Shown here: in pieces, positions 4,341-18,433 of the stretch
Position numbering within the stretch: position 1 is the first letter of the stretch
How the letters are laid out: each line of letters starts with the position of its first letter
Assembly: GCA_011046135.1 (NCBI GenBank)
Contig: DSBG01000114.1
Coordinates: forward strand, 1 to 61,374
Source: Deltaproteobacteria bacterium
Lineage (GTDB): Bacteria; Desulfobacterota; Desulfomonilia; UBA1062
Direction: 5' to 3'
DNA length: 61,374 nucleotides
Notes under the pieces: generated by a model
Seen by the model: the letters and a program-made list of their open reading frames with translations, nothing else
What the model was told of the DNA's origin: nothing
Databases searched by the model: none
Made by a program: the position numbers and the translations under genes

Positions 4341-5192
4341 TCAGGGGTATTCGTAGAATCCCTTGCCGGTTTTTCTTCCAAGCCAACCTGCTTCGACATA
4401 TTTCTTCAGTAACGGGCACGGCCGGTATTTGGAGTCGGAAAACCCCGCATAGAGGGTCTCCATGATTGCGAGGCAGGTATCGAGCCCGATGAGGTCAGCC
4501 AGTGCCAGAGGCCCCATGGGATGATTCATGCCGAGTGTCATGACCGTATCGATGTCCTCTCTCCTCCCGACTCCGTGGTAGAGGCAGTAGACAGCCTCAT
4601 TGATCATGGGCATGAGGACCCGGTTTGAGATGAATCCCGGAAAATCATTTGCCAGGGCAGGTGTTTTTCCGAGCGTCAGGGCAAGATTCCAGGTGAGCTC
4701 GAAGGTTTCATCAGAGGTTGCAAGAGACCTGATTACCTCGACGAGCTTCATCACCGGGACGGGATTCATGAAGTGCATGCCGATTACTTTGTCGGGTCGT
4801 CTCGTTCCGGAAGCAACCCTGCCGATGGGAATGGAAGAGGTGTTCGTGGCCAGGATTGCACGGGAAGGGCAGATGGAATCGAGGTCTTCAAAGATCTTGA
4901 TTTTGATGGCCTCGTTCTCCGATGCAGCCTCAACCACGAAATCGACATCAGCCAGGAGCTTCAGATCCGTACCGGGCCGGATTCTGCCCAGGATGGCCTG
5001 CTTTTCTGCATCAGAGAGCGTTCCCTTGGCAACCGAGCGATCGAGTTGGGTTGTAATGGTTTTGACGCCCTTTATGAGGAACGATTCTCCGATATCGGTC
5101 ATAATCACGTCAAGACCCTGTGCTGCTGCGACCTGGGCGATGCCACTGCCCATCTGGCCTGCACCCACCACGGCAAAACGACGAATGTTCAT
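4341..5192 (-). CDS. hbd: 3-hydroxybutyryl-CoA dehydrogenase
   Basis: A 283-residue protein, the standard length for Hbd/PaaH. It oxidises 3-hydroxyacyl-CoA to 3-oxoacyl-CoA with NAD, or the reverse, in the cytoplasm. The Rossmann motif GAGQMGSGIAQ is at residues 10-20, ATNTSSIPIG near 114 and the catalytic-dyad region MHFMNPVPVMKLVEVI near 138. The C-terminal domain has NDFPGFISNRVLMPMINEA and ends GRKTGKGFYEYP, as in the family. It stands alone on the minus strand, convergent with the DUF3047 gene and divergent from the methyltransferase operon. It fits butyrate-type or syntrophic fatty acid metabolism. Confidence 0.95.
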   Translation of the reverse strand: MNIRRFAVVGAGQMGSGIAQVAAAQGLDVIMTDIGESFLIKGVKTITTQLDRSVAKGTLSDAEKQAILGRIRPGTDLKLLADVDFVVEAASENEAIKIKIFEDLDSICPSRAILATNTSSIPIGRVASGTRRPDKVIGMHFMNPVPVMKLVEVIRSLATSDETFELTWNLALTLGKTPALANDFPGFISNRVLMPMINEAVYCLYHGVGRREDIDTVMTLGMNHPMGPLALADLIGLDTCLAIMETLYAGFSDSKYRPCPLLKKYVEAGWLGRKTGKGFYEYP

Positions 5193-5348
5193 GGATCAGC
5201 CTCCTCTTTGGTGAGTATGACACCTGAAATGGCGGCATTGGCGACGAGCAATCCCACCGAGATCTCTGGTTAAATCATGACAAGGGTAAAATCAAGGAAG
5301 AATGCACAGAAAACATGAGAAGCACTGGGGTGTCATGTGCAGCGCTCC

Positions 5349-5376
5349 TTGACAGCATGTCTCAGGAAACTATGAT
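5349..5376 (+). promoter_or_regulatory. Sigma-70-type promoter for the corrinoid methyltransferase operon
   Basis: TTGACA at 5349-5354, 16 bases, then TATGAT at 5371-5376: a perfect -35 and a near-consensus -10. It lies about 50 bases before the UroD-like gene and points toward it. No cobalamin riboswitch box is seen in this leader. Confidence 0.7.
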
Positions 5377-5424
5377 GGTACAGCAGGTTGAACGTGTGAT
5401 TTTCAAGGTGATGTGGGGGAGAGA

Positions 5425-6594
5425 ATGTCTCAAGACAAGGGAATTTTCAGGAAGCTAGGAAAACCTCTTCTCCAGGGGATGATCCCTCCTCCGGGATTGT
5501 TCCCGGAGAAGTTCCTGGATGCTCTTTCAGGGCTGTGCAGCCTTCGGGGGAAGGTCTCCAGGCTGACCAACGTCGAGCGGCTCATAACAACGCTTCGGCA
5601 CAGGGAACCTGACCGGGTTCCCTGCTGTCCCCTTGTCATCAGTGGCTCGCGGCGTCTCATCGGAGCATCGTTTCCCGATTTTGCCCTCAAGCCTGAAACA
5701 ACGACCCGTGCCCTGATGGCGGCCTTCGATCTGATCGGGGGAGAAGTGGTCATCCCCATGCTCGATCTTTCGGTGGAGGCGAGTGATTTCGGTCAGACGA
5801 TGATCTATCCCGAGAATTCAACGCCGCATCCCGACTATGATCATCCCCTCATTACGGATCACACCGGCTACCAGAAGCTCAAACGGATAAATCTCAGGGA
5901 TGCCAGGCGCATGCACTCCCTGGTCGAGGTCTTGAGGATCGTTACCAGGCAGGTAGGCATGAAGGGGGTTGTCTCGGGCTTCTGCTTCGGCCCTCTGGGG
6001 GTGCTGTGCATGATGCGGGGTGCAGAGCACCTGTTTCGTGAGTGCATCCTGTATCCGACAGAGGTGATGGCCGCCCTCGAGACCATAACCGGAGTCCTTG
6101 CTGAATTCATCGAGGCCCAGTGCGAAACCGGTGTGGCTGCCATCACACTGGACACGCTTTTCGCCTCACACAACGGCTTGAGCAAGCCTCTGTGGGAGCA
6201 GATGGAAGGGCCGTTCGTTCGTGAGCTCTCGTCTCTCATACGGAGCAAGGGATGCATCGTCGGGGTTCACAATTGTGGCCATGGCAGCTACTTCGATTCA
6301 CAGATCCGATTCATGGAACCTCAGATCATGTCATTTGCAGAGCTTCCAGAAGGTTGCAATACCCTTGGCGAACTCAAGAAACGCTACGGAGACCAGGTTG
6401 TGCTCATGGGAAACATGAACACCTCGCTCCTTGCCCATGCAGGTCCCTGCGAGGTGATTCAGGACGCGAAGAGACTCATCGAAGCTCTCGCTGACGGAGG
6501 GGGGTTCGTCCTTGCACCAGGCTGTGAATACCCCCCGAATGCGCCCCTTGAAAATGCCTTTGTCCTTGCACAGGCAGCAAAGCTCTGTACATGA
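5425..6594 (+). CDS. Uroporphyrinogen decarboxylase-family corrinoid methyltransferase
   Basis: A member of the UroD/MtaA/CmuA superfamily of zinc-dependent methyltransferases, which move methyl groups between a substrate or coenzyme and a corrinoid protein. The zinc motif is visible as GVHNCGHG near residue 280 (H-x-C) with the distal Cys in LAPGCEYPPNAP near residue 362. True hemE enzymes lack this zinc site, and the next gene is a corrinoid protein, which argues against heme synthesis. Frame is open from a GTG at 5413, but the ATG at 5425 is preceded by GGGGGAGAG and is preferred (389 residues). The stop overlaps the next start (ATGATG). The methyl donor cannot be told from sequence. Confidence 0.86.
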   Translation: MSQDKGIFRKLGKPLLQGMIPPPGLFPEKFLDALSGLCSLRGKVSRLTNVERLITTLRHREPDRVPCCPLVISGSRRLIGASFPDFALKPETTTRALMAAFDLIGGEVVIPMLDLSVEASDFGQTMIYPENSTPHPDYDHPLITDHTGYQKLKRINLRDARRMHSLVEVLRIVTRQVGMKGVVSGFCFGPLGVLCMMRGAEHLFRECILYPTEVMAALETITGVLAEFIEAQCETGVAAITLDTLFASHNGLSKPLWEQMEGPFVRELSSLIRSKGCIVGVHNCGHGSYFDSQIRFMEPQIMSFAELPEGCNTLGELKKRYGDQVVLMGNMNTSLLAHAGPCEVIQDAKRLIEALADGGGFVLAPGCEYPPNAPLENAFVLAQAAKLCT

Positions 6595-7271
6595 TGGGAG
6601 AACAGGAGGATTCCGTGGAAAAGCTGGCTTTCCACACGCAGATGCAGCGCCGGATACGGTCAGCGGTCTGTTGCCATGATGCTGAAACGCTCAGAGCTCT
6701 TCTGGATGAGTGCCTCGTGGAAAAGAGCCCTGGGGAGGTTTCCGGCATCCTGCTCGATGCCCTTGAAGAGCAGCGGCTGAATTTCATGTCGAGTGCACGA
6801 TCTCTCCCGGAGTTCATCCTCACCATCGATACCGTGAATGCAGCCCTCGAACAGATGCGCTCCCTGGAGGAACCCAGGAAGAACAGTGATGCTTTCGTGA
6901 GGATCGTGATCGGTGTCGTTCGAGGCGATCCTCATGACCTCGGCAAGAACATCATTGCAGGGCTGTACCGTGCCTACGGATTCGAGGTTATCGATCTCGG
7001 CAGGGATGTCCACCAGGAGGCTTTCTCTGCAGCACTAACGACCTATGATGCAAAGGTTCTGGCACTGTCAGCCATGATGTCAACCACCATGCCCGCAATG
7101 AAAGAGATCATCCGCGAGGTCAGGATCACAGGATCGAAAGTGGCAGTCGTTATCGGCGGTGCACCTCTTGATGCTGAGATTGCCCGTGCGTACGGCGCAG
7201 ATGGTTACGCCCAGTCGGCAAGACATGCCATAGAGGAAACACGCTCGGCAATCTCGCGTGTTTTTCCATGA
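6591..7271 (+). CDS. Methyltransferase cognate corrinoid protein (B12-binding)
   Basis: A 226-residue protein with the two domains of methyltransferase corrinoid proteins. Residues 1-95 are a helical B12-binding cap. Residues 100-215 are a Rossmann-like B12-binding domain with the lower-ligand motif DPHDLGKNI (DxHxxG, His as cobalt ligand) near residue 108, ALSAMMSTTMPAMKEII near 150 and VVIGGAPL near 180. It should carry the methyl group as methyl-Co(III) for the upstream UroD-like methyltransferase. It starts four bases before the end of that gene and ends 6 bases before the next one, so all three form one operon. Confidence 0.93.
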   Translation: MMGEQEDSVEKLAFHTQMQRRIRSAVCCHDAETLRALLDECLVEKSPGEVSGILLDALEEQRLNFMSSARSLPEFILTIDTVNAALEQMRSLEEPRKNSDAFVRIVIGVVRGDPHDLGKNIIAGLYRAYGFEVIDLGRDVHQEAFSAALTTYDAKVLALSAMMSTTMPAMKEIIREVRITGSKVAVVIGGAPLDAEIARAYGADGYAQSARHAIEETRSAISRVFP

Positions 7272-7277
7272 AAGGTC

Positions 7278-7973
7278 ATGACCATTCTCGATCTCGAGCT
7301 CGATGAGGACATGCTTCTGCATGTCGAATCAAGGGTCCGACCCTCGTTGTGGACCCCAGGAGACCATGCCAGAGCATCTCAGGTGAAAGGGCTGATCAAA
7401 GAGGCTGTGGACAAGATCGGCGAGATCTCCCGCATCAGGGCCGTGCACACGATCATGCCCGTCGAATTCCTGAACGGCAGGGAGATACATACCCGGGCAG
7501 GTTCCATCATGAGCCGACGTTTTGCACGACTCGCATCTGGAAGCACAGGAGAGCTGTTCGTGGTTTTTCTGATCGCAACGCTGGGACAGCGTGCATCCTC
7601 GCTGGCAGAAGATCAGGAGACCCTGCTGTCTCGCCTGGTGTTTGACTGTGTGCTCTCGGAGACCATCGAAATCGTCGTGCAACGACTCGAAGAGGCATTG
7701 CATCGTGATATGGCAGTGTGCAGTCGCGAAATGACTTCGCGGTTCAGCCCAGGGTACTGCGACTGGCCCCTCGAAGGGCAGCGTGTTGTATTCAGTGCCC
7801 TGGATGCATCCAGCATCGATGTCGAACTGAACGATTATTGTGTCATGGTGCCTGCCAAATCAATCTCCTGCGTGTTCCTCGCGGCTTCTTCTGTTCCCAG
7901 TGCAACGCCGTGCACCTTCTGTCCCCTTGAAGACTGTGCCTGGAGGCGAGATACGCACACCGGGGAATTTTGA
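7278..7973 (+). CDS. Stand-alone MetH activation-domain-like protein
   Basis: A 231-residue protein resembling the activation domain of B12-dependent methionine synthase as a separate polypeptide. The diagnostic stretch is RFSPGYCDWPLEGQ near residue 155, followed by CVMVPAKSISCVFLA near residue 192. In MetH this domain binds S-adenosylmethionine for reductive remethylation of inactive cob(II)alamin. Its place right after a corrinoid protein suggests that it reactivates that protein. A C-terminal CTFCPLEDCAWRR holds three Cys that could bind a metal or an iron-sulfur cluster; MetH lacks them. There is no RamA-type activase in the operon, which this protein could replace. Confidence 0.75.
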   Translation: MTILDLELDEDMLLHVESRVRPSLWTPGDHARASQVKGLIKEAVDKIGEISRIRAVHTIMPVEFLNGREIHTRAGSIMSRRFARLASGSTGELFVVFLIATLGQRASSLAEDQETLLSRLVFDCVLSETIEIVVQRLEEALHRDMAVCSREMTSRFSPGYCDWPLEGQRVVFSALDASSIDVELNDYCVMVPAKSISCVFLAASSVPSATPCTFCPLEDCAWRRDTHTGEF

Positions 7974-8053
7974 ACTTTTCGATAAAACAGCGTGTACCCT
8001 GTCGGTTGTCTGTGGTATCTCCAGTAAAAATTTATGCATGGACGAGGTGATCG

Positions 8054-8338
8054 ATGGCAAAGGATATTACTGACCTGACTATTGCATACGAGGAGGATGG
8101 GGTCGTCGTGGTCGAGGAGCTCGATAAGGTGATTCTGTCGAAAGGGGCGTGGTCGACGATTCTGTTCAGGTACCGGCAGTGGGACGCCGCGAAAAACGAG
8201 TATGGTCCGGAGAGGTACTCTCTTCGCAGGTATCGGAAAATGAAAGACGAGTACCGTCAGCAGTCAAAGTTTACCATTTCCAGCAAAGAACAGGCCCAGA
8301 AACTGATAGATGCCCTCAGAAAATGGGTGGAGAGCTAG
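8054..8338 (+). CDS. Small conserved basic protein, possibly PC4/YdbC-like
   Basis: A 94-residue charged protein. The N-terminal half has beta-rich TIAYEEDGVVVVEELDKVILSKGAWSTILFRYRQWD; the C-terminal half has basic SLRRYRKMKDEYRQQSKF followed by TISSKEQAQKLIDALRKWVES. I recognise the pattern as a conserved deltaproteobacterial hypothetical protein. The strand-then-helix layout ending in a Trp-containing helix recalls PC4-type single-stranded nucleic-acid-binding proteins, but I cannot prove this. It starts 80 bases after the activase-like gene and may be in that operon or independent. It converges with apbE. Confidence 0.7.
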   Translation: MAKDITDLTIAYEEDGVVVVEELDKVILSKGAWSTILFRYRQWDAAKNEYGPERYSLRRYRKMKDEYRQQSKFTISSKEQAQKLIDALRKWVES

Positions 8339-8410
8339 AGAAGGAATACGTTCCCGAGGCAACAGAACACATGAAAAGTCGGAGGGGAACGACAGACAGG
8401 AAAGATCTTC

Positions 8411-9394
8411 TCAGTGAATACCAGGGAGCTTTTCTGGAAGGAGGTTCTCGAGAGAGGGACTGGAGGAGATCTTCCCGTCCTTATCGATCACGATCCACTG
8501 GATAGATCGTGCTTCGAGAAGTTCCTTCAACGGTTCTACTCCCCTAACGAACAGCGCAGTGGCCCAGGCATCGGCCTCGATGCAGGTTGCAGCAATCACT
8601 GTTGTGCTTATAACGTGATCAACCGGCCACCCTGTTTCAGGATCCAGGATGTGGCTGTAGCGGGTTCCGTGTGTCTCGAAAAAGCGCTCATAACTCCCTG
8701 AAGTGGCTATTGACCGGTCCTTGATGGGGATCGTGGCAATAATGCCGGGACCTTGCGGGTTCTTGATTCCGATCCTCCAGGTTTTCTCTCCAAAGGTTGC
8801 GATATCTCCACCTGCATTGATGAGGCCGGAGCGTACACCCTGTTGCCGCAGTATGGTGGCTGCACGGTCAGCAGCATATCCCTTGACGATACCCGCAAGA
8901 TCCACCTTGAGGCCCTCTGCGGTTGTAATGCTTTCTCCGTCATCTGCAAGGACGATCCCTTCCTCACCGGGCAGGGATTTCCACAGGAGGAACTCGTCAT
9001 CGGTGGGCAGACGATAGGGGTGTGTTCCGGTAAATCCCCATGCATCGAGGATGGGGCGCATTGTCAATGAGAATGCCCCCGATGATGCACGGTGAATCTC
9101 CAGAGCCTGCTGCATCACGGTGAAGATTTCGGCGTCTTTGATCGTGTTGAAGGAGTTGAGTTCCGTAATGAGCGAGTCCTGGTACCCGAAGATTCTTTCG
9201 ATCCTGATGAGTTCTTCGGAGGCCTTTTTTATCGCAGCTTCAACGGCATTCTTTGAACCCTGGCCCTGAATCTCCACGATTGTCCCCATGGCAAAGAACT
9301 GCATGCTATGGAGCCGTGAGGTTCCCCCGGAGAGCACAAGATAGATGCCGATAATCAGCACCACGGAAATAATGGAAAATAATATCTTTCGCAC
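8411..9394 (-). CDS. apbE: FAD:protein FMN transferase
   Basis: A 327-residue ApbE enzyme, which attaches FMN covalently to Ser/Thr of exported proteins such as Rnf or Nqr subunits. A hydrophobic segment (residues 4-22) without a lipobox Cys suggests a membrane-anchored protein facing the periplasm. Family motifs: ITELNSFN near 75, SGAFSLTMRPILDAWGF near 105, VDLAGIVKGYAADRA near 170, LINAGGDIATFG near 196 and the Mg-binding HILDPETGWPVD near 257 followed by CIEADAWATALFV. It follows eno by 48 bases on the same strand. No Rnf gene is in the window. Confidence 0.92.
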   Translation of the reverse strand: MRKILFSIISVVLIIGIYLVLSGGTSRLHSMQFFAMGTIVEIQGQGSKNAVEAAIKKASEELIRIERIFGYQDSLITELNSFNTIKDAEIFTVMQQALEIHRASSGAFSLTMRPILDAWGFTGTHPYRLPTDDEFLLWKSLPGEEGIVLADDGESITTAEGLKVDLAGIVKGYAADRAATILRQQGVRSGLINAGGDIATFGEKTWRIGIKNPQGPGIIATIPIKDRSIATSGSYERFFETHGTRYSHILDPETGWPVDHVISTTVIAATCIEADAWATALFVRGVEPLKELLEARSIQWIVIDKDGKISSSPSLENLLPEKLPGIH

Positions 9395-9442
9395 GGGGAT
9401 TTCAGGCAGTGGGGGGCACAGAGCCCCCCCCGATAATTCACG

Positions 9443-10732
9443 CTATCCGAAAATGCTGTAGAGAACCTTTTTCCCCCTGAACACAGAGGATGATCCGAGT
9501 TCTTCCTCGATGCGCAGAAGCTGATTGTACTTGGCCAGACGTTCACCCCTCGAGGTCGATCCTGTTTTAAGCTGCCCGGCACTGCAGCCAACCGCTACGT
9601 CGGCAAGCCAGGAATCTTCAGTTTCCCCGGATCGGTGAGAGAATACCGTAGTAAAATGGGCATGACGGGCCATTTCGATCGTCTGGACCGTTTCGGTGAG
9701 CGTCCCGATCTGATTCACCTTGATGAGAATCGAGTTGGCCGATTTTTCCCTGATGCCCCGTTCCAGAAACTTCGCATTCGTGACGAAGAGATCGTCTCCA
9801 ACGATCTGAATCCTCCCGCCCAGTCGCTCGGTAAGATTCTTCCATCCATCCCAGTCCTCTTCCGCAAGCCCGTCCTCGATGGAAACAATGGGATACTTTT
9901 CTATGAGCTCCGCATAGAAATCGATCATCTCTCCCGAGGTTCTCTCGGGGTCGATCTCGGAGGCGAGAACGTAGTTTCCCTCTTTGAAGAAGGAGCTTGC
10001 CGCAGCATCAATCACGATGGCTATGTCTTCGCCTGGCCTGTATCCCGCCATCTCGATGGCCTGAACAATGAGCTCGAAGGGTTCGGAATTTGACTTCAGA
10101 TTTGGAGCGAAGCCGCCTTCGTCACCAACATTGGTTGCATAGTTGTTTTTCGAGAGAATCTCCTTGAGACTGTGAAAGGTCTCAGCTGCGTAGCGCAGCG
10201 CCTCTCTGAAGGTTGGAGCACCAAGGGGCATGATCATGAATTCCTGCAGATCCACGTTGTTGTCTGCGTGCTTGCCTCCGTTGATGATGTTGAACTGTGG
10301 AACGGGAAGCTCTCTGGCGAACGTTCCGCCAAGGTACCGGTAGAGGGGAAGGCCCAGAAAATTCGCTGCGGCTCGTGCCACGGCGACGGAGACACCCGTA
10401 GTTGCGTTGGCTCCGAGTTTGGATTTATTCTCGGTCTCATCGAGTTCCAGAAGGAGGGCGTCGATGCCTGTCTGGTCCATGGCATCCATTCCGGAAAGAC
10501 TCGGCGCGATCTTCTTGATCACATTGTCAACAGCCTTGAGGGTTCCCTTTCCCTTGTATCGCTTCGGGTCTCCATCTCTGAGTTCTACGGCTTCATTGAC
10601 TCCCGTCGATGCACCCGAGGGAACGGATGCTCGTCCCATATCTCCTGTCGACAGGAACACGTCGACCTCCACGGTCGGATTTCCCCGTGAATCCAAAAGC
10701 TCTCTTGCAACAACATCGAGAATTTCACTCAT
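9443..10732 (-). CDS. eno: Enolase
   Basis: A 429-residue protein of standard length, converting 2-phosphoglycerate to phosphoenolpyruvate in glycolysis and gluconeogenesis. Clear signatures are [17 protein letters not shown] at residues 9-25, SVPSGASTG near 36, [14 protein letters not shown] near 285 (metal ligands), GDDLFVTN near 312, the catalytic Lys region [11 protein letters not shown] near 333 and [18 protein letters not shown] near 367. The start is fixed by [11 protein letters not shown]. It lies between rlpA and apbE on the minus strand with gaps under 50 bases, suggesting one transcript. Confidence 0.98.
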
Positions 10733-10778
10733 AGCACCTGTTCCTCCTTGTCGTATGGTTACTGCCTTGAAGTAGTAA

Positions 10779-11417
10779 TCAAAGCTGGATTATCACTGAG
10801 GCAAACCCCTCGGAATGGAGCTTCTCGGCAACTCCCCGTGCCTGCTGGAGGGAAGGATATTCTCCGAGCCGAACCCTGTGGAAGGATTTTCCCTTCACCA
10901 CAACCTCTTCTATGCTGGGTGTATACCCGCGCATCGCAATCTGATTCGCCACATGCAGGGCATTGTTCCTCTCCGCATATGAGCCGAACTGCAGGACATA
11001 CCCATACGTTAAGGTACCCGGTGTTTTTAGCACTTCAACGCGTACCTTGGCAAGGCCTTCTTCAACCATACCCAGACGTCGGGCAGCACCATAGGACAGA
11101 TCGATGATCCTGTCGCCCACGAACGGACCACGATCGTTGATGGGGAGGACAATCTTTCTTCCGTTGGCAAGATGGGTCACCCGTACCGTTGTTCCAAGGG
11201 GCAGGGTTTTGTGTGCTGCACTGTACCCGTACATGTTGTACTTCTCGCCGGAGGCTGTGGGGTTCCCGTGAAAATCCCTGCCGTACCACGAAGCCGTGCC
11301 GATCTGCTCCCATGTTGAGGATTGTTTGGATACATGCGAACAACCGGAAAGGAACAGCAGAAGGACAAGAATCAGGATGGCAGAATGGTCAATTCTCCAG
11401 ATAACCTTCAATTTCAT
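10779..11417 (-). CDS. rlpA: RlpA-like septal ring lipoprotein with SPOR domain
   Basis: A 212-residue lipoprotein: basic start, hydrophobic stretch and lipobox LSGC with Cys at about residue 26. Residues 38-120 are a double-psi beta-barrel with [30 protein letters not shown] and [17 protein letters not shown], whose Asp is the proposed lytic transglycosylase residue. Residues 135-212 form a SPOR domain ([21 protein letters not shown]) that binds denuded glycan strands at the division septum. The ATG lies 29 bases inside the end of plsB, so it is probably translationally coupled to it. Confidence 0.92.
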
Positions 11418-13869
11418 GCATCACCCACTTCAGTTTGTCTTCGTCGATAATGCTGTTCTGATCGTCCAGGATGCCTTTGGCCTTGAACGTATCCAGAGCC
11501 CCCTTGTACACAGGAAGGCACAGAGCTTCCGGACGCTTTATTTCTCCCTTCTTGAGCATCCTGACGGCATAACGGTTGATGGTCTTGAGGGCATCTTTGC
11601 TCTGGAAATTCTTGATCCTGGCTGCATGACGGGCCACACACAGATACGACTCGAGGTAGTTCTCAATGAGACCGTCGAAGAACGCGATCTGCTGACGAGC
11701 AGCAGGATTCACGGTATAGAATCCTTTTGTTTCTGTGACGAAGCCAGAATCTTTCATGTAATCAAGGGCACGGCCAACACTGTTCCCCTCGAGGATGAAT
11801 TCGTTCTCCAGCAGAGAGGCGAGCGTTGCCACCTGCTCTTTGAATATCTTTTCAACTATCCCCTGATCGTATTTGAGGAGAACATTGGCTATCAGAGATG
11901 CTGGGACAAAGAAATTCAAAATGGTGTTTTTGTAGTATTCCAGGTGAATCCGGTTCTCATTCTGAACTGAGATCAGTGCAGAATCATCCTCAGTCGCCCC
12001 CTCGTCGATACTCACCAGCCCTTTTTTCTTGAAAGTTTCAAATGCCTCGTGGAAGGCCTCGGTTTCGTCCGAGAAGGAAGAAGTCAGGTTGTAACCGAGA
12101 TACTTAAGATAGCTCAGAAAGGTTGTAAACCCCTGCTGCAACGCTTCTTCTTCCAGCGCTGAGGTTGAACTGGTGAGTACACAGGAGAGGAGCGAGAACG
12201 GGGTTGCCACTGTCTGCTTATAGATGTTCGAGATGATCTCTTGAGCCATGTCGTCGTAGAGAGATTCACGTTGCTCCGGTTTCATCCGGGAATAGGTCGG
12301 TTTTCCTTTCATGTACTCATTGAGCGACAACGGCTGTGCAAAACGGATGTACACTTTGCCGTAGCGGTTCTTCAGGATGCTGCGGGCTTTCAGGAGCTGC
12401 CAGAAGGACTCCTTCTGTTTCGGCTCTCCCTTCATCTCCCTGATGTAGACATTCTCTTCCACCACGGTGTCATAGCCGACATACACCGGAACAAAGATAA
12501 CATCCCTGCTCACCCCCGATTCCCACCCCTGGATGATCATGGAGAGCAGCCCCTTTTTCGGGAGCATGAGCTTGCCAGACCTGCTCCGGGCTCCCTCGAT
12601 GAAAAACTCCATGGGAATTCTCTCTCCGAGCAGTGTCCTCACGTATGCGGCAAAGGTCTGGGCGTAGAGGGGGTTGTTTTTGAAGCTCCTCTTCATGAAA
12701 AAGGCTCCTCCCTTTCTCAGGAAGGGTCCCATGGGAAAGAATGCGAGATTAATGCCTGCTGCAATTACCGGAACGCTCATCCAATTCTGAAAGAGGAAGT
12801 ACGAAAGGATCAGGTAGTCGATGTGGCTCTTGTGACACGGAACATAGATGAGCGATCCCTTCCGGGCCATTTCCTTGACAGCCTTCATTCCCTCTTCGTT
12901 CACATCCACGCCGTCGTAGATGTTATTGAAGACCCAGGTAAGGGTCTTGTTCAGAAAGTTGATGGTTGCAGGGCTGAGGTCGGAGGCGATCTGGTCGAGG
13001 TATTTGTAGACAGATCGTTCGAGGTCCTGGACACTCTTGTTTTCGTCATGTGAGTGCGCCTTCAGGAAGGATTGTAGCATGGGGTCTTTCATGGTCTTGG
13101 TGATGAGAAAAGACCTCTCACGAACCGGTGCGCCGGAAACATTGCTTCCGAGTTCAGCGAGGCGGTGCATGAGTTCGTTCCTGATATCAACGGCAACCTC
13201 CTCAAGGAATTTTTCGCCGGTCAGCGCCTTTTTCAGTTCATCCTTGAGGTTGATGGGTTCCCCGTGCTCAAGAAAACCGTTTTCTTCGGCGAGAAGGAGC
13301 GTGAACAGTTTCCTGATGCCCTGGATTTTTGCCTGGTCCTCCTTTGAGGCATCCTTTATCTTCAAGGGGGCTCTCCGATAGATGATCCGCTGTGGAACGA
13401 TGTACATGGGAGTCTCTTTTTCCCGCTGAGTCTTCAAAAGTTCGAGTATCGGGTCCGGGTATGCTCTCTGTGGATCCTTGTCCAGGAATACCAGAGATGC
13501 GGATGAAGAGTGTTCCATGAATTCCTGGTAGAAGCCGTTTCGAAATGGTGATGTCTTTCCCATCGCTAGGGTTTTTAGGAGTGATACAATTCTTGAAACT
13601 GGCTGAAACAGCGCGAGGGCGTTGCCGAAAACGATCCTGGGAAAGGGGAGTTCTTCATGTTTGAGACGGTGATTGAGCAGCAGGGTATCAATAAGGCTCT
13701 CCGAACTCTGCGCAAAAATGATGTGACCTTTGCGTGAGAGGGCATGGAGAGATTCCCGGTACAGCTCAGGAATATTGATGGGGGAAAAGAGACGCCGGAA
13801 AAGCGGACCTAAAAGGAAGCCGTACAATCCATCGAAGGTCAGGGGTTCATTTCTGCGGGGTGTCTTCAT
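11389..13869 (-). CDS. plsB: Glycerol-3-phosphate 1-O-acyltransferase
   Basis: An 826-residue PlsB, the full length of the gammaproteobacterial enzyme and much longer than PlsC. It acylates sn-glycerol-3-phosphate, the first step of phospholipid synthesis, at the inner membrane. All catalytic blocks are visible: VPCHKSHIDYL (the HxxxxD dyad) near residue 343, GPFLRKGGAFFMKRSF near 385, FFIEGARSRSGKLMLPKKG near 423 and VIFVPVYVGYD near 455. Long N- and C-terminal regions match PlsB rather than other acyltransferases. It lies between uvrC (70 bases upstream) and rlpA (overlapping). The PlsX/PlsY route is not represented in this window. Confidence 0.96.
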   Translation of the reverse strand: MKTPRRNEPLTFDGLYGFLLGPLFRRLFSPINIPELYRESLHALSRKGHIIFAQSSESLIDTLLLNHRLKHEELPFPRIVFGNALALFQPVSRIVSLLKTLAMGKTSPFRNGFYQEFMEHSSSASLVFLDKDPQRAYPDPILELLKTQREKETPMYIVPQRIIYRRAPLKIKDASKEDQAKIQGIRKLFTLLLAEENGFLEHGEPINLKDELKKALTGEKFLEEVAVDIRNELMHRLAELGSNVSGAPVRERSFLITKTMKDPMLQSFLKAHSHDENKSVQDLERSVYKYLDQIASDLSPATINFLNKTLTWVFNNIYDGVDVNEEGMKAVKEMARKGSLIYVPCHKSHIDYLILSYFLFQNWMSVPVIAAGINLAFFPMGPFLRKGGAFFMKRSFKNNPLYAQTFAAYVRTLLGERIPMEFFIEGARSRSGKLMLPKKGLLSMIIQGWESGVSRDVIFVPVYVGYDTVVEENVYIREMKGEPKQKESFWQLLKARSILKNRYGKVYIRFAQPLSLNEYMKGKPTYSRMKPEQRESLYDDMAQEIISNIYKQTVATPFSLLSCVLTSSTSALEEEALQQGFTTFLSYLKYLGYNLTSSFSDETEAFHEAFETFKKKGLVSIDEGATEDDSALISVQNENRIHLEYYKNTILNFFVPASLIANVLLKYDQGIVEKIFKEQVATLASLLENEFILEGNSVGRALDYMKDSGFVTETKGFYTVNPAARQQIAFFDGLIENYLESYLCVARHAARIKNFQSKDALKTINRYAVRMLKKGEIKRPEALCLPVYKGALDTFKAKGILDDQNSIIDEDKLKWVMHEIEGYLEN

Positions 13870-13939
13870 GGCGCCCGTGAGTATAGACCACAGGCATGAT
13901 CTTGGAAAGATGAATTATGACGTCATGCGAGCGTATGGA

Positions 13940-15730
13940 TCATTGTTCGTGTTCTGAGAGCCCTGGCGTGAAGCCTTTCAGTAGGGAGAGAACGGCGATT
14001 CTATCGGCCTCGGTGAGTCCAGGAATGTGTTCCAGGTCCTGTGCCGAACACTGCGAGAGATCCTCGATCCGGCCAAGGGTTTTCAGAAGAGCCGTTGCTT
14101 TCTTCGGGCCGATTCCTGGGATTTCTTCGAACAGAGATTTTGTGGCTCTCCTGCGGAGAAGCCTGTGGTACCTGATGGCAAAACGATGGGCCTCGTCCCT
14201 GATCATCCGAAGGGTTCTCAGCGAACCGGAGCGTTCTGGGAGAAGAACAGGGTTTTTTCTTCCCGGGACAAAGAATCGATCGGATTTTTTACCCCTGGCC
14301 TTGGCCATTGCAATGACAGGGATCGATGGTATGTCCATTTCCCTAAATACCCGCAGGCAGACTTCAAGCTGACCCTTGCCCCCATCGAGTATGATGAGAT
14401 CAGGTTTTGGTTCATCAGATCCGAGCCTGCGCTCCATGACCTCTTTAAGCATGCTGAAATCATCCGGTGTCTCTTTCGATCTGATTTTGTAGTGACGGTA
14501 GAGTGTCGTATCAGGAACGGCATCGATGAATACTGCTCTGGATGCCGTGGCGTAAGCTCCCTGTAGGTTTGAAACATCAAAGCACTCCATGCGGTAGGGA
14601 ATGGCGCCGAGGTGGAACGCCCGTGCGATGTCATCGAGAACAGATGAGCCTTTCTCTCGGGAATGGTTCCGAGCATTCTCCTGCGCCAACAGGATCCACT
14701 GCAGGGGCTTGCCTCGTAATGCCTTCCTGATCGTCACTCGAGATCCCCTCATGTCCGAAAGGATCGCCGCGAGCGATTCTCGATTTTCCGGCAGTGTATC
14801 GATGAATATGAGGGGGGGTATCTCTGTCCTGTTCAGGTAGAACTGGAGGATACTGTTGGTTACGAGATCTTCTTCAAAGACTTCCTTTACGGAGAAATTA
14901 TGACTGTCTGAAAGAATGCCCTGATACACCGACAGAATCGATATCTGCAACTGACCATGCTGTCTGTAGGTGCCGAATATATCGATATCCGTAAATGAAT
15001 CCCCCACGATTGCCTGTGGTACGAGAGTGGTTCGGATCGCGTCGATCTGGTCCCGGATCTGTGCCGCTTTTTCGAAGTTGAGCGCGTCCGAGGCGCTCTT
15101 CATGCGTTGGATCAGGCTCCTTTCGAGATCCCTGTTTCTTCCCTCGAGAAAGGAGATAAGGTCATCAAGGGTCTGATCGTAGTCTTTCCTGATGTCCCGA
15201 TAGACACAGGGCGCCATGCACAGACCGATCTGATGAAACATGCAAGGTCTGCTCCTGTTTTCAAACTCGGTGTCCCTGCACCTCCTGACGGGAAATATTC
15301 TCCCGATGGCGCTGAGCGTCTTCCGGGTTGCCTGAGCTGAAGAATAGGGGCCGAAATAACGGGATCCGTCCTTGATCACTTTCCGGGTGATGAAGATACC
15401 GGGCCAGGGGTGGGCGAGGGTTATCTTGAAGCGGACATAGGTTTTGTCATCCTTGAGATCGATGTTGTATCTGGGCTTGTGTGCTTTGATCAGCTGATTT
15501 TCGAGCAGGAGCGCCTCGGTTTCATTCCTGGTAAGGATGTAGTCAATCTTGTCGGTCTGTGCGCAGATTCGTTGCGTGTAGATTCTGGTGTCGTCGGTGA
15601 GATAGGATCGCAGCCGGGACCTGAGGTTTTTTGCTTTCCCGATGTAGATGATCTGACCCCCGGTGTTTCTCAGGAGGTACACGCCGGTCGCCCGTGGAAG
15701 CCCGGTGATCATATCCTGTATTAATGCCAT
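13940..15730 (-). CDS. uvrC: Excinuclease ABC subunit C
   Basis: A 596-residue UvrC, which makes both incisions in nucleotide excision repair with UvrAB. The GIY-YIG nuclease domain is at residues 15-95 (GVYLLRNTGGQIIYIGKAKNL). A UVR motif is near residues 200-232 (MKSASDALNFEKAAQIRDQI). The RNase H-like second nuclease follows (ECFDVSNLQGAYATASRAVF, LIILDGGKGQLEV), and tandem helix-hairpin-helix motifs close the protein (EIPGIGPKKATALLKTLG). It is divergent from pth and heads the minus-strand group uvrC-plsB-rlpA-eno-apbE. Confidence 0.97.
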   Translation of the reverse strand: MALIQDMITGLPRATGVYLLRNTGGQIIYIGKAKNLRSRLRSYLTDDTRIYTQRICAQTDKIDYILTRNETEALLLENQLIKAHKPRYNIDLKDDKTYVRFKITLAHPWPGIFITRKVIKDGSRYFGPYSSAQATRKTLSAIGRIFPVRRCRDTEFENRSRPCMFHQIGLCMAPCVYRDIRKDYDQTLDDLISFLEGRNRDLERSLIQRMKSASDALNFEKAAQIRDQIDAIRTTLVPQAIVGDSFTDIDIFGTYRQHGQLQISILSVYQGILSDSHNFSVKEVFEEDLVTNSILQFYLNRTEIPPLIFIDTLPENRESLAAILSDMRGSRVTIRKALRGKPLQWILLAQENARNHSREKGSSVLDDIARAFHLGAIPYRMECFDVSNLQGAYATASRAVFIDAVPDTTLYRHYKIRSKETPDDFSMLKEVMERRLGSDEPKPDLIILDGGKGQLEVCLRVFREMDIPSIPVIAMAKARGKKSDRFFVPGRKNPVLLPERSGSLRTLRMIRDEAHRFAIRYHRLLRRRATKSLFEEIPGIGPKKATALLKTLGRIEDLSQCSAQDLEHIPGLTEADRIAVLSLLKGFTPGLSEHEQ

Positions 15731-15771
15731 GAATTCATGCTACCACGTTATCTAGAAGAGTCAAAGTGCAC

Positions 15772-15800
15772 TTGACAGGCACCGGGGGAACGTATATAGA
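15772..15800 (+). promoter_or_regulatory. Sigma-70-type promoter for pth-hppA
   Basis: TTGACA at 15772-15777, a 17-base spacer and TATAGA at 15795-15800, a near-consensus promoter about 40 bases before the pth start and on the plus strand. Confidence 0.75.
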
Positions 15801-15842
15801 AACAGGCGATGAATGAGTATTCATTTCTTAGAAGGCGCTTTC

Positions 15843-16415
15843 ATGACAATCGTCTATGGCTTGGGGAACCCGGGGAGACAATATCAGAAAACCCGGCACA
15901 ACATCGGATTTATGGTCGTGGATCATCTTGCACACATATGGAACATATCCCTCAAATCTGCAGAGGCAGACATCGTAACGGGCAAAGGCTTTGTTGGTAG
16001 GATGCCTGTCATGCTCGTCAAACCCTGCACCTTCATGAACAGGAGTGGTCTGCCCTTGAGGAGGCTTGGCATCGGAGCAGAGTCACTCCTGGTAATCCAT
16101 GACGACATGGACATTGAATTCGGAACGATACGCATCAAGACCGGCGGCGGCTCTGGCGGCCACAAGGGAATCAAATCCATCGTCGAACAGATCGGGAGCG
16201 ATTCATTTCTCCGTATCCGCTGCGGGATCGGAAGGCCTTCTCATGATTGCGACCCGAGTGATTATGTGCTAGGGCGATTCAGCAGTGGAGATCAGAGCAT
16301 TCTCGATGCTGAAATTGAGATGGCGACGGATGCGGCTGTCCTCTGCGTTCAGGGAGAGGTCACAAAAGCGATGAACGCCTACAACAGGCGGGAGAGAGAC
16401 AACTCAACTACGTGA
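15843..16415 (+). CDS. pth: Peptidyl-tRNA hydrolase
   Basis: A 190-residue Pth when started at 15843 ([11 protein letters not shown]), which matches the family N terminus and follows AGAAGG by eight bases. An upstream in-frame ATG at 15813 would add ten residues and is less likely. The enzyme releases peptides from peptidyl-tRNA dropped by ribosomes. Signatures: [22 protein letters not shown] with the catalytic His near residue 20, [10 protein letters not shown] near 60, [15 protein letters not shown] near 86 and [12 protein letters not shown] near 105. The stop lies 17 bases before hppA, sharing the promoter at 15772. Confidence 0.95.
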
Positions 16416-16432
16416 AGGGAGGTTACTTGTCT

Positions 16433-18433
16433 ATGGAACAGTGGGCAAATTGGGCGTGGGTTTTGGGTATCATAGGGCTGGGAATTGCCCTATTGATGTA
16501 TGCATCACTCAAGAAAAAAGATGCGGGAACGGAACAGATGCAGGAACTCGCGGAGATGATCCATGAGGGAGCGATGGCATTCCTGAAGAAGGAGTATGTG
16601 TTCCTTGTGGCTTTCGTTATCGTGGTGGCGATTCTCCTCGCAATAGGCATCAGTATGCAGAGTTCCATCGCATATATCTTCGGAGCATTCTGTTCGGGTC
16701 TTGCGGGATTTATCGGGATGTCATCGGCCACAGCGGCCAACGTCCGTACCAGCCAGGCTGCAGCGACCAAGGGGATGGATGCGGCACTGAATGTCTCCTA
16801 CTTCGGAGGAGGTGCCGTGATGGGAATATGCGTTGCATCCCTGGGCCTGATCGGTCTGGGAATTTTTTATGCAATCTGGCACTCCGCTGAAACCGTGCAG
16901 TACCTGAGCGGCTTCGGTATGGGTGCATCGTCTGTTGCACTCTTTGCCCGTGTCGGCGGCGGCATCTATACAAAGAGCGCCGATGTCGGTGCTGATCTCG
17001 TCGGCAAGGTGGAAGCCGGTATTCCTGAGGACGACCCGAGAAACCCCGGGGTCATCGCAGACAATGTCGGCGACAATGTGGGTGACATTGCCGGAATGGG
17101 CGCTGACCTGTTTGAGTCTTACGTGAACTCCATTATCGCAGCCATCGCCATTGCCTCCACGAGCACGGTCGCCCTGTTCGCCGGGGTAACAGAAACACAG
17201 CGCAGCCTGTACATGGCTCTGCCCGTACTGCTGGTCATGTTCGGACTTGTCGCCTCTCTCATAGGCATCGTATCCGTGAAAGTGCTGGCTAAACTCGGCC
17301 CGCAGAAGGCGCTTCGCTACTCGACATGGATCGCCGGTATCCTCTTCATCATCTTTGCCATCATCATTGTAAGGAGCCTGGGTGTTGATTTCGGCGTGTT
17401 CTGGTCCATCTTCTTCGGTCTGCTGGCGGGCGTGCTCATCGGGCTCACCGCCGAGTACTACTGCTCAGGCACCCCCATCAAGAAGATTGCAGAGGCCTCG
17501 CAGACTGGCCCGGCCACCAATGTGATCACCGGTCTGGCCGTCGGTCTGGAATCAACAGCACTGCCGATGTTCATCATTGTTGTTGCCATCGGGATCGCAG
17601 CACACTTCTCCGGGCTTTTCGGCATCGCGCTTGCCGGTGTGGGTATGCTGGCAACCATCGGTGCGACCATGGCTGTGGATGCCTACGGACCTGTTGCGGA
17701 TAACGCAGGGGGCATCACCGAGATGTCCGCCCTCGGCCATGAAGTCAGGAAGATCACGGACGAGCTGGATGCGCTCGGAAACACCACTGCTGCCATCGGC
17801 AAAGGCTTCGCCATCGGCTCAGCGGCTCTGACCGCACTGGCACTCTTTTCGGCATACGGAAAGGCTGTTGGCCTGGATACCATCAACCTCGTGAACCATA
17901 TGACGGTCATGGGTCTGTTCATCGGCGGTATCATTCCGTTCCTGGTGGCAGCGCTGACCATGACGTCTGTGGGACGTGCAGCGTTCAAGATGGTGGAAGA
18001 GATCAGGCGCCAGTTCAAGGAAATACCGGGGCTCATGGAAGGAACCGGGAAACCTGACCCTGCACGGTGTGTTTCCATTGCCTCCGGGGCTGCCCTCAAG
18101 GAAATGATCCTTCCCGGTCTCATTGCAGTGCTCGCTCCAGTTGTCGTGGGCTTTGTGTTCGGCAAGGAGGCCCTCGGAGGGATGCTTGCCGGTGCAACGT
18201 TGACCGGAGCTATGCTGGCTCTCTTCATGGCCAATGCCGGCGGTGCATGGGACAATGCCAAGAAGTTCATCGAGGAAGGTCATTTCGGCGGAAAACACAG
18301 CCCGCCGCATGCAGCGGCAGTCATCGGCGATACAGTGGGCGACCCGTTCAAGGATACTTCGGGTCCTGCCATGAATATTCTGATCAAGCTCATGAGTGTT
18401 ATCGCCCTGGTTATTGCCCCGTTGATCCTTTAA
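16433..18433 (+). CDS. hppA: K+-dependent membrane-bound pyrophosphatase (ion pump)
   Basis: A 666-residue integral membrane protein of about 16 segments that couples PPi hydrolysis to H+ or Na+ export across the inner membrane. The substrate loops are [20 protein letters not shown] near residue 183 and [19 protein letters not shown] near 208; later loops include [15 protein letters not shown] and [18 protein letters not shown]. The stretch [20 protein letters not shown] has Ala, not Lys, after GNTT, which marks the K+-dependent subfamily. The Glu in GADLFESY sits where Na+-pumping enzymes have it; plant H+ pumps read DLFGSY there. The ATG at 16433 follows AAGGGAGG; an upstream GTG overlapping pth is less likely. 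Confidence 0.96.

Follow-up and report, generated by a model that had tools for sequence, protein, structure and literature searches.

We found a three-gene cassette in a 61,374-nt stretch of DNA (the window, meaning the whole stretch analysed) whose third protein, ORF3, is probably a MetH-type reactivase that uses S-adenosylmethionine (SAM), acts in trans on the corrinoid protein of the cassette and replaces the RamA/RACo activase (probability roughly 0.6, judged from sequence comparison and a structural model). Trans reactivation by this MetH-like protein appears well supported by comparison, through the fold, the SAM-site residues, the conserved linkage and the exclusion of RACo at the level of the locus.

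The cassette spans 5425-7973 of the window and consists of three same-strand ORFs in the order UroD, corrinoid protein, ORF3. The gene for the UroD-family (SCMT/Mlp-like) corrinoid methyltransferase (5425..6594, + strand, 389 aa) has an alternative start, also open, at a GTG at 5413, and its stop overlaps via ATGA the start of the gene for the cognate corrinoid (B12-binding) protein (6591..7271, + strand, 226 aa). After a gap of 6 bp follows ORF3 (7278..7973, + strand, 231 aa), a stand-alone protein (Act) like the MetH reactivation domain. The positions of the genes agree with the first-pass annotation, as does the lack of a second methyltransferase in the cassette; RACo is absent from it as well. 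The upstream 'strong promoter' of that annotation is a sigma-70-like match, TTGACA-16-TATGAT (5349..5376, + strand), which fits 11 of 12 consensus positions, a score that no other site in the window reaches; being a match to a consensus, it is no proof of promoter strength. Just 3' of ORF3 lies a 94-aa ORF (8054-8338) without a Pfam or NCBIfam match.

The methyltransferase matches URO-D (PF01208) with 180 bits in Pfam and is MtaA/CmuA-like, yet it is far under the equivalog cut-offs, with 98.5 bits against mtaA_cmuA (cut-off 235.4) and 77 against MtaA (cut-off 400). On these scores, we rejected it as an MtaA/MtbA coenzyme M methyltransferase equivalog, and we rejected it as a HemE-type decarboxylase (HemE, 30 bits vs a cut-off of 303). 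Its His-Cys-Cys zinc site is intact, as the earlier description of a zinc-type UroD methyltransferase implied: the ligands H282 (6268-6270), C284 (6274-6276) and C367 (6523-6525), all on the + strand, are unchanged in 81/81 UroD relatives. Within the UroD superfamily, His-Cys-Cys zinc goes with S- or Se-methyl chemistry, carboxylate substitutions with oxygen substrates (PMC10418091). Hence, the zinc site weakens the case for methoxyaromatics, methylamines and betaine, the donors first proposed; these fit it more poorly than S- or Se-methyl compounds do and appear less likely as substrates. Methoxyaromatic donors belong with the Acetobacterium O-demethylase/Cdm group (PMC13222342).

Among acetogens, UroD relatives lie in RACo-bearing clusters with genes for a cysteine-synthase-like protein, a Cys/Met-metabolism PLP enzyme and homoserine succinyltransferase (L164), and this gene context is that of the sulfur-type mlp gene clusters (MGCs) of PMC10418091. 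The L164 cluster of Acetobacterium dehalogenans (5677-16534) runs through cysteine-synthase-like, Rrf2, corrinoid protein, UroD, CobW GTPase and DUF1638 genes and then continues with a second UroD, RACo, the PLP enzyme and homoserine succinyltransferase. In Phaeobacter, split MetH depends on DUF1638, a protein whose role is unexplained (PMC5764234).

The second protein was correctly called a corrinoid protein. Its B12-binding domain (PF02310) scores 88 bits in Pfam and the B12 motif is complete, with DPHDLG (D-x-H-x-x-G), 41 residues, the tripeptide SAM (S-x-M), 26 residues and GG; the cobalt ligand is His115 (6933-6935, + strand). It is similar to 1y80 and to methylamine and betaine corrinoid proteins.

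ORF3 has the fold of the MetH reactivation domain by both structure prediction and profile, which bears out the initial label 'MetH-activation-like'. Since Pfam misses the Act family (ORF3 scores 21.8 bits against Met_synt_B12, PF02965, just below the 25-bit cut-off, and its paralogue on contig C8 has no match), we used family profiles, and the profile of ORF3 relatives matched Thermotoga maritima TM0269 (1j6r) over nearly the full length (E=1.5e-19). The AlphaFold2 model of ORF3 has a pLDDT of 92.6, and 19/19 of its significant PDB matches are MetH reactivation domains, with TM0269 at the top. ORF3 residues R155, Y160 and E131 align with Arg1134, Tyr1139 and the acidic column 1097 (E1097) of Escherichia coli MetH, and G159-Y160 with Gly1138-Tyr1139. 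The first two lie in the motif RFSPGYCDW (residues 155-163; 7740..7766, + strand), which holds an extra Cys161. The SAM contacts described for MetH include Arg1134 and Tyr1139, and the acidic contact named is Glu1101, one helical turn from 1097 (PMC1282579). The reactivation-domain Tyr, which is universally conserved, has an important part in reactivation (PMC10567725), and in the human enzyme a mutation of the proline-rich loop within its AdoMet domain impairs reductive methylation (PMC12272874). The predicted SAM site of ORF3 is not identical to that of MetH: columns D946 and Y1189 are gapped or replaced, as in other short stand-alone Acts.

TM0269, itself a stand-alone MetH reactivation protein, resembles ORF3 in fold, size and the RxSPGY motif, and ORF3 would share its trans action on a corrinoid protein; TM0268/TM0269 are the precedent for such action, as cited in PMC7857596 (Huang 2007). 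However, TM0269 serves MetH, whereas ORF3 is coupled to UroD and a corrinoid protein and has four additional Cys (C161 and those of its tail). ORF3 is neither part of methionine synthase nor beside it: the MetH of its genome is on another contig. RamA/RACo (PF14574) presumably does the same job as ORF3, the return of Co(II) to the catalytic cycle, but is of the ATP type, whereas ORF3 is predicted to be of the SAM type. ORF3 itself was rejected as a RamA, as it has no ATPase fold and no Pfam match to RACo_C_ter, Raco_middle or a ferredoxin domain.

The cassette shares with type 1 MGCs a UroD/SCMT-like His-Cys-Cys methyltransferase, a corrinoid protein and the lack of a tetrahydrofolate methylase. 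By definition, though, a type 1 MGC has at least two Mlps plus Ram, whereas the cassette lacks Ram and has a MetH-type reactivator with a single UroD and a single corrinoid protein; we rejected it as a type 1 MGC for lack of Ram and its single UroD. The Acetobacterium O-demethylase/Cdm systems (PMC13222342) also pair a UroD-fold methyltransferase I with a corrinoid protein but, unlike the cassette, rely on an activating enzyme that is ATP-dependent and on a tetrahydrofolate methyltransferase II.

A UroD alignment scan of 84,980 genomes gave 80 named loci, and UroD, corrinoid protein and Act occur together at 17/81 UroD loci (window included). Act-bearing cassettes are present in the cultured Desulfatibacillum alkenivorans DSM 16219 and Desulfosediminicola flagellatus IMCC35005. 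The UroD tree divides into two supported halves, one with the window (34 rows, SH-aLRT 99) and its sister (47 rows). In the window half, 17 loci carry a Tyr-type Act, one more Act (L087) is truncated by its contig and no locus has RACo; in the sister half, 15 loci carry RACo and none a Tyr-type Act. Act is absent at L085 (the nearest UroD relative, beside the same enolase gene), L088, L099, L103 and in Actinomycetota. Hence, the UroD-corrinoid pair does not need a linked Act, and the linkage is common, not obligatory.

The actinomycetotal loci (L104-L109, L111, L114) have UroD, mostly with an adjoining corrinoid protein, and neither Act nor RACo nearby; at several of them Fe-S oxidoreductase-like genes adjoin UroD. 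At L110, L112, L117, L119, L120 and L124, UroD is followed by what by eye are a MoxR-like AAA ATPase and a partner of ~750 aa, with no adjacent corrinoid protein, a gene context of another kind.

By gene context, the Act relatives split into four groups. Group A, in UroD-corrinoid cassettes, has RFSPGYCDW and CxxCxxxxC, as does group D, which is found alone or in cassettes with MttB and corrinoid proteins and Pterin_bind (L056, L197, L198). Group B adjoins an ~800-aa MetH that has no activation domain; it has RxSAGYGDF and no Cys tail. Group C adjoins RACo and has PGSLxDWP, with the SAM-site Tyr gone and the Arg mostly gone and the tail retained. At L056, L197 and L198, a Tyr/Cys-type Act occupies the place expected for RamA beside an MttB-type methyltransferase, a corrinoid protein and a Pterin_bind MTII, and there is no RACo. 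L058 (5878-10401) holds two Act-like genes with altered SAM-site residues, then a hydantoinase/oxoprolinase-like ATPase gene. Six cassette Acts have Pro in place of the SAM-site Arg.

The 'added CxxCxxxxC tail' noted previously is present in ORF3 (C212, C215, C220; 7911..7937, + strand) but is no one-off: entire subfamilies share it, and it is accompanied by a fourth Cys that is likewise invariant. Across 76 proteins, the tail occurs in 23/23 Acts that have both the Tyr and Cys161 (two more are cut by contig ends) and in 0/21 that have the Tyr without Cys161. The conserved Cys besides the tail is Cys161 in the Tyr/Cys class and a Cys at aligned residue 102 in the RACo-linked class (20/27). None of the four Cys of ORF3 is found in MetH, and Cys161 neighbours Tyr160, the counterpart of the MetH Tyr that lies over the cobalt. 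The pattern suggests that Cys161 and the three tail Cys may form a four-Cys site. We tentatively raise the further possibility that ORF3 and its kin are metal-centre MetH reactivation domains, in which the four Cys would bind a [4Fe-4S] or similar cluster at the SAM/cobalt face and supply an electron relay of their own in place of flavodoxin, giving an ATP-free substitute for RamA in UroD- and MttB-type systems of anaerobes.

RACo lies within 6.5 kb of 0/46 Tyr-type Acts vs 15/30 non-Tyr Acts among these 76 homologues, a correlation that rests on few events, as the Act tree shows just two changes of the Tyr state. With so few independent events, a sign test on tree-independent pairs was not significant for the correlation between SAM residues and RACo.

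The genome of the window (2.9 Mb, 99% complete) has a MetH on contig C101 (L020:543-2993, 816 aa), and ORF3 might chiefly reactivate this methionine synthase, as a TM0269 equivalent located in the cassette, or serve both clients. The C101 MetH has no activation domain and no adjoining Act gene, and the genome encodes two Act-like proteins only, of which ORF3 alone keeps the SAM residues; hence, MetH has no other SAM-competent candidate here, and ORF3 may serve both this enzyme and the cassette corrinoid protein. Most relatives, moreover, have a tail-less Act adjoining an ~800-aa MetH. However, the cassette-linked Acts are a separate clade that tracks the UroD-corrinoid pair in many genomes, both a MetH-linked Act and a cassette Act are present in G005 and G007, and a RamA-like DUF4445 protein is also able to service MetH (PMC5764234). 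We consider MetH an unlikely chief or joint client on this balance. The L085 genome is a mirror image, with a cassette that lacks Act and with Act halves at a contig break beside MetH. A flavodoxin-like gene lies ~1.8 kb downstream of the C101 MetH (4751-5329).

The first-pass annotation reported no RamA-type activase and named a RamA homologue elsewhere as the alternative to ORF3. The former holds for the cassette and not for the genome, whose sole RACo is on contig C8; such a homologue thus exists in form. There it belongs to a second UroD cassette (L019:6743-11196, minus strand) made up of UroD_C8 (without the third zinc Cys), a corrinoid protein, RACo and an Act without SAM residues. This RACo could reactivate both corrinoid proteins with ATP, leaving ORF3 as a loading, shielding or scaffold factor. 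RACo-adjacent Act homologues persist despite the loss of their SAM residues, which argues for some non-SAM role of the Act fold. Against this stand the SAM residues kept in ORF3, the Tyr-type Acts that never adjoin RACo and G005, a 100% complete genome of the same family that has the cassette (corrinoid protein, Act and a UroD end at the contig edge) and in which two domain models found no RACo. At least one RACo was found in 22/23 of the cassette-host genomes checked. Altogether, we regard reactivation of both proteins by the C8 RACo as quite improbable.

Two side observations concern these loci. A stand-alone homocysteine S-methyltransferase (PF02574; L019:15661-16629, minus strand) lies ~4 kb from the C8 cassette, and this family is also close to UroD in L063 and L074; with it, the C8 cassette resembles a corrinoid methionine synthase in split form or a methyl-to-homocysteine system. 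Directly downstream of the G005 cassette is, by eye, an HgdB-like 2-hydroxyacyl-CoA dehydratase (L055:4563-5966), a possible low-potential electron donor.

That SAM is instead the regular methyl donor, with ORF3 methylating the corrinoid protein at each turnover and UroD passing the methyl to a thiol or selenol with no separate donor enzyme, would suit a single methyltransferase of the methyl-Co-to-thiol (MtaA-like) type next to a SAM-type Act but is very unlikely, as MetH uses its SAM step for repair and not at every turnover, UroD-corrinoid pairs without Act occur and the SAM cost would be high.

In the preferred reading, reactivation in trans by ORF3, the zinc UroD would exchange methyl groups with the corrinoid protein, the other partner being a soft (S or Se) substrate, and oxidation of Co(I) would leave this protein in its inactive Co(II) form. 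ORF3 would then dock onto the corrinoid protein and place SAM above the cobalt, and Co(II), one electron and SAM would yield the remethylated cofactor, the reductive methylation known from MetH, here carried out in trans. The electron may come from flavodoxin or from a metal site formed by the four Cys. ORF3 would thus stand in for the ATP-dependent RamA/RACo activase of the sister systems.

A search of open-access papers found no prior description of Met_synt_B12/PF02965 with corrinoid methyltransferases. Corrinoid methyltransferase systems are recognised and defined by a RamA/RACo activase, which PMC10418091, for instance, demands, and in 2005 the MetH reactivation fold was said to occur only in methionine synthase (PMC1282579). 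If a MetH-type reactivator does replace RamA, an entire group of corrinoid systems has been overlooked in sulfate reducers and other anaerobes, and the MetH reactivation fold would be a general corrinoid-repair module. With the 231-aa ORF3, the supply of low-potential electrons for SAM-based repair in an anaerobe would become directly testable.
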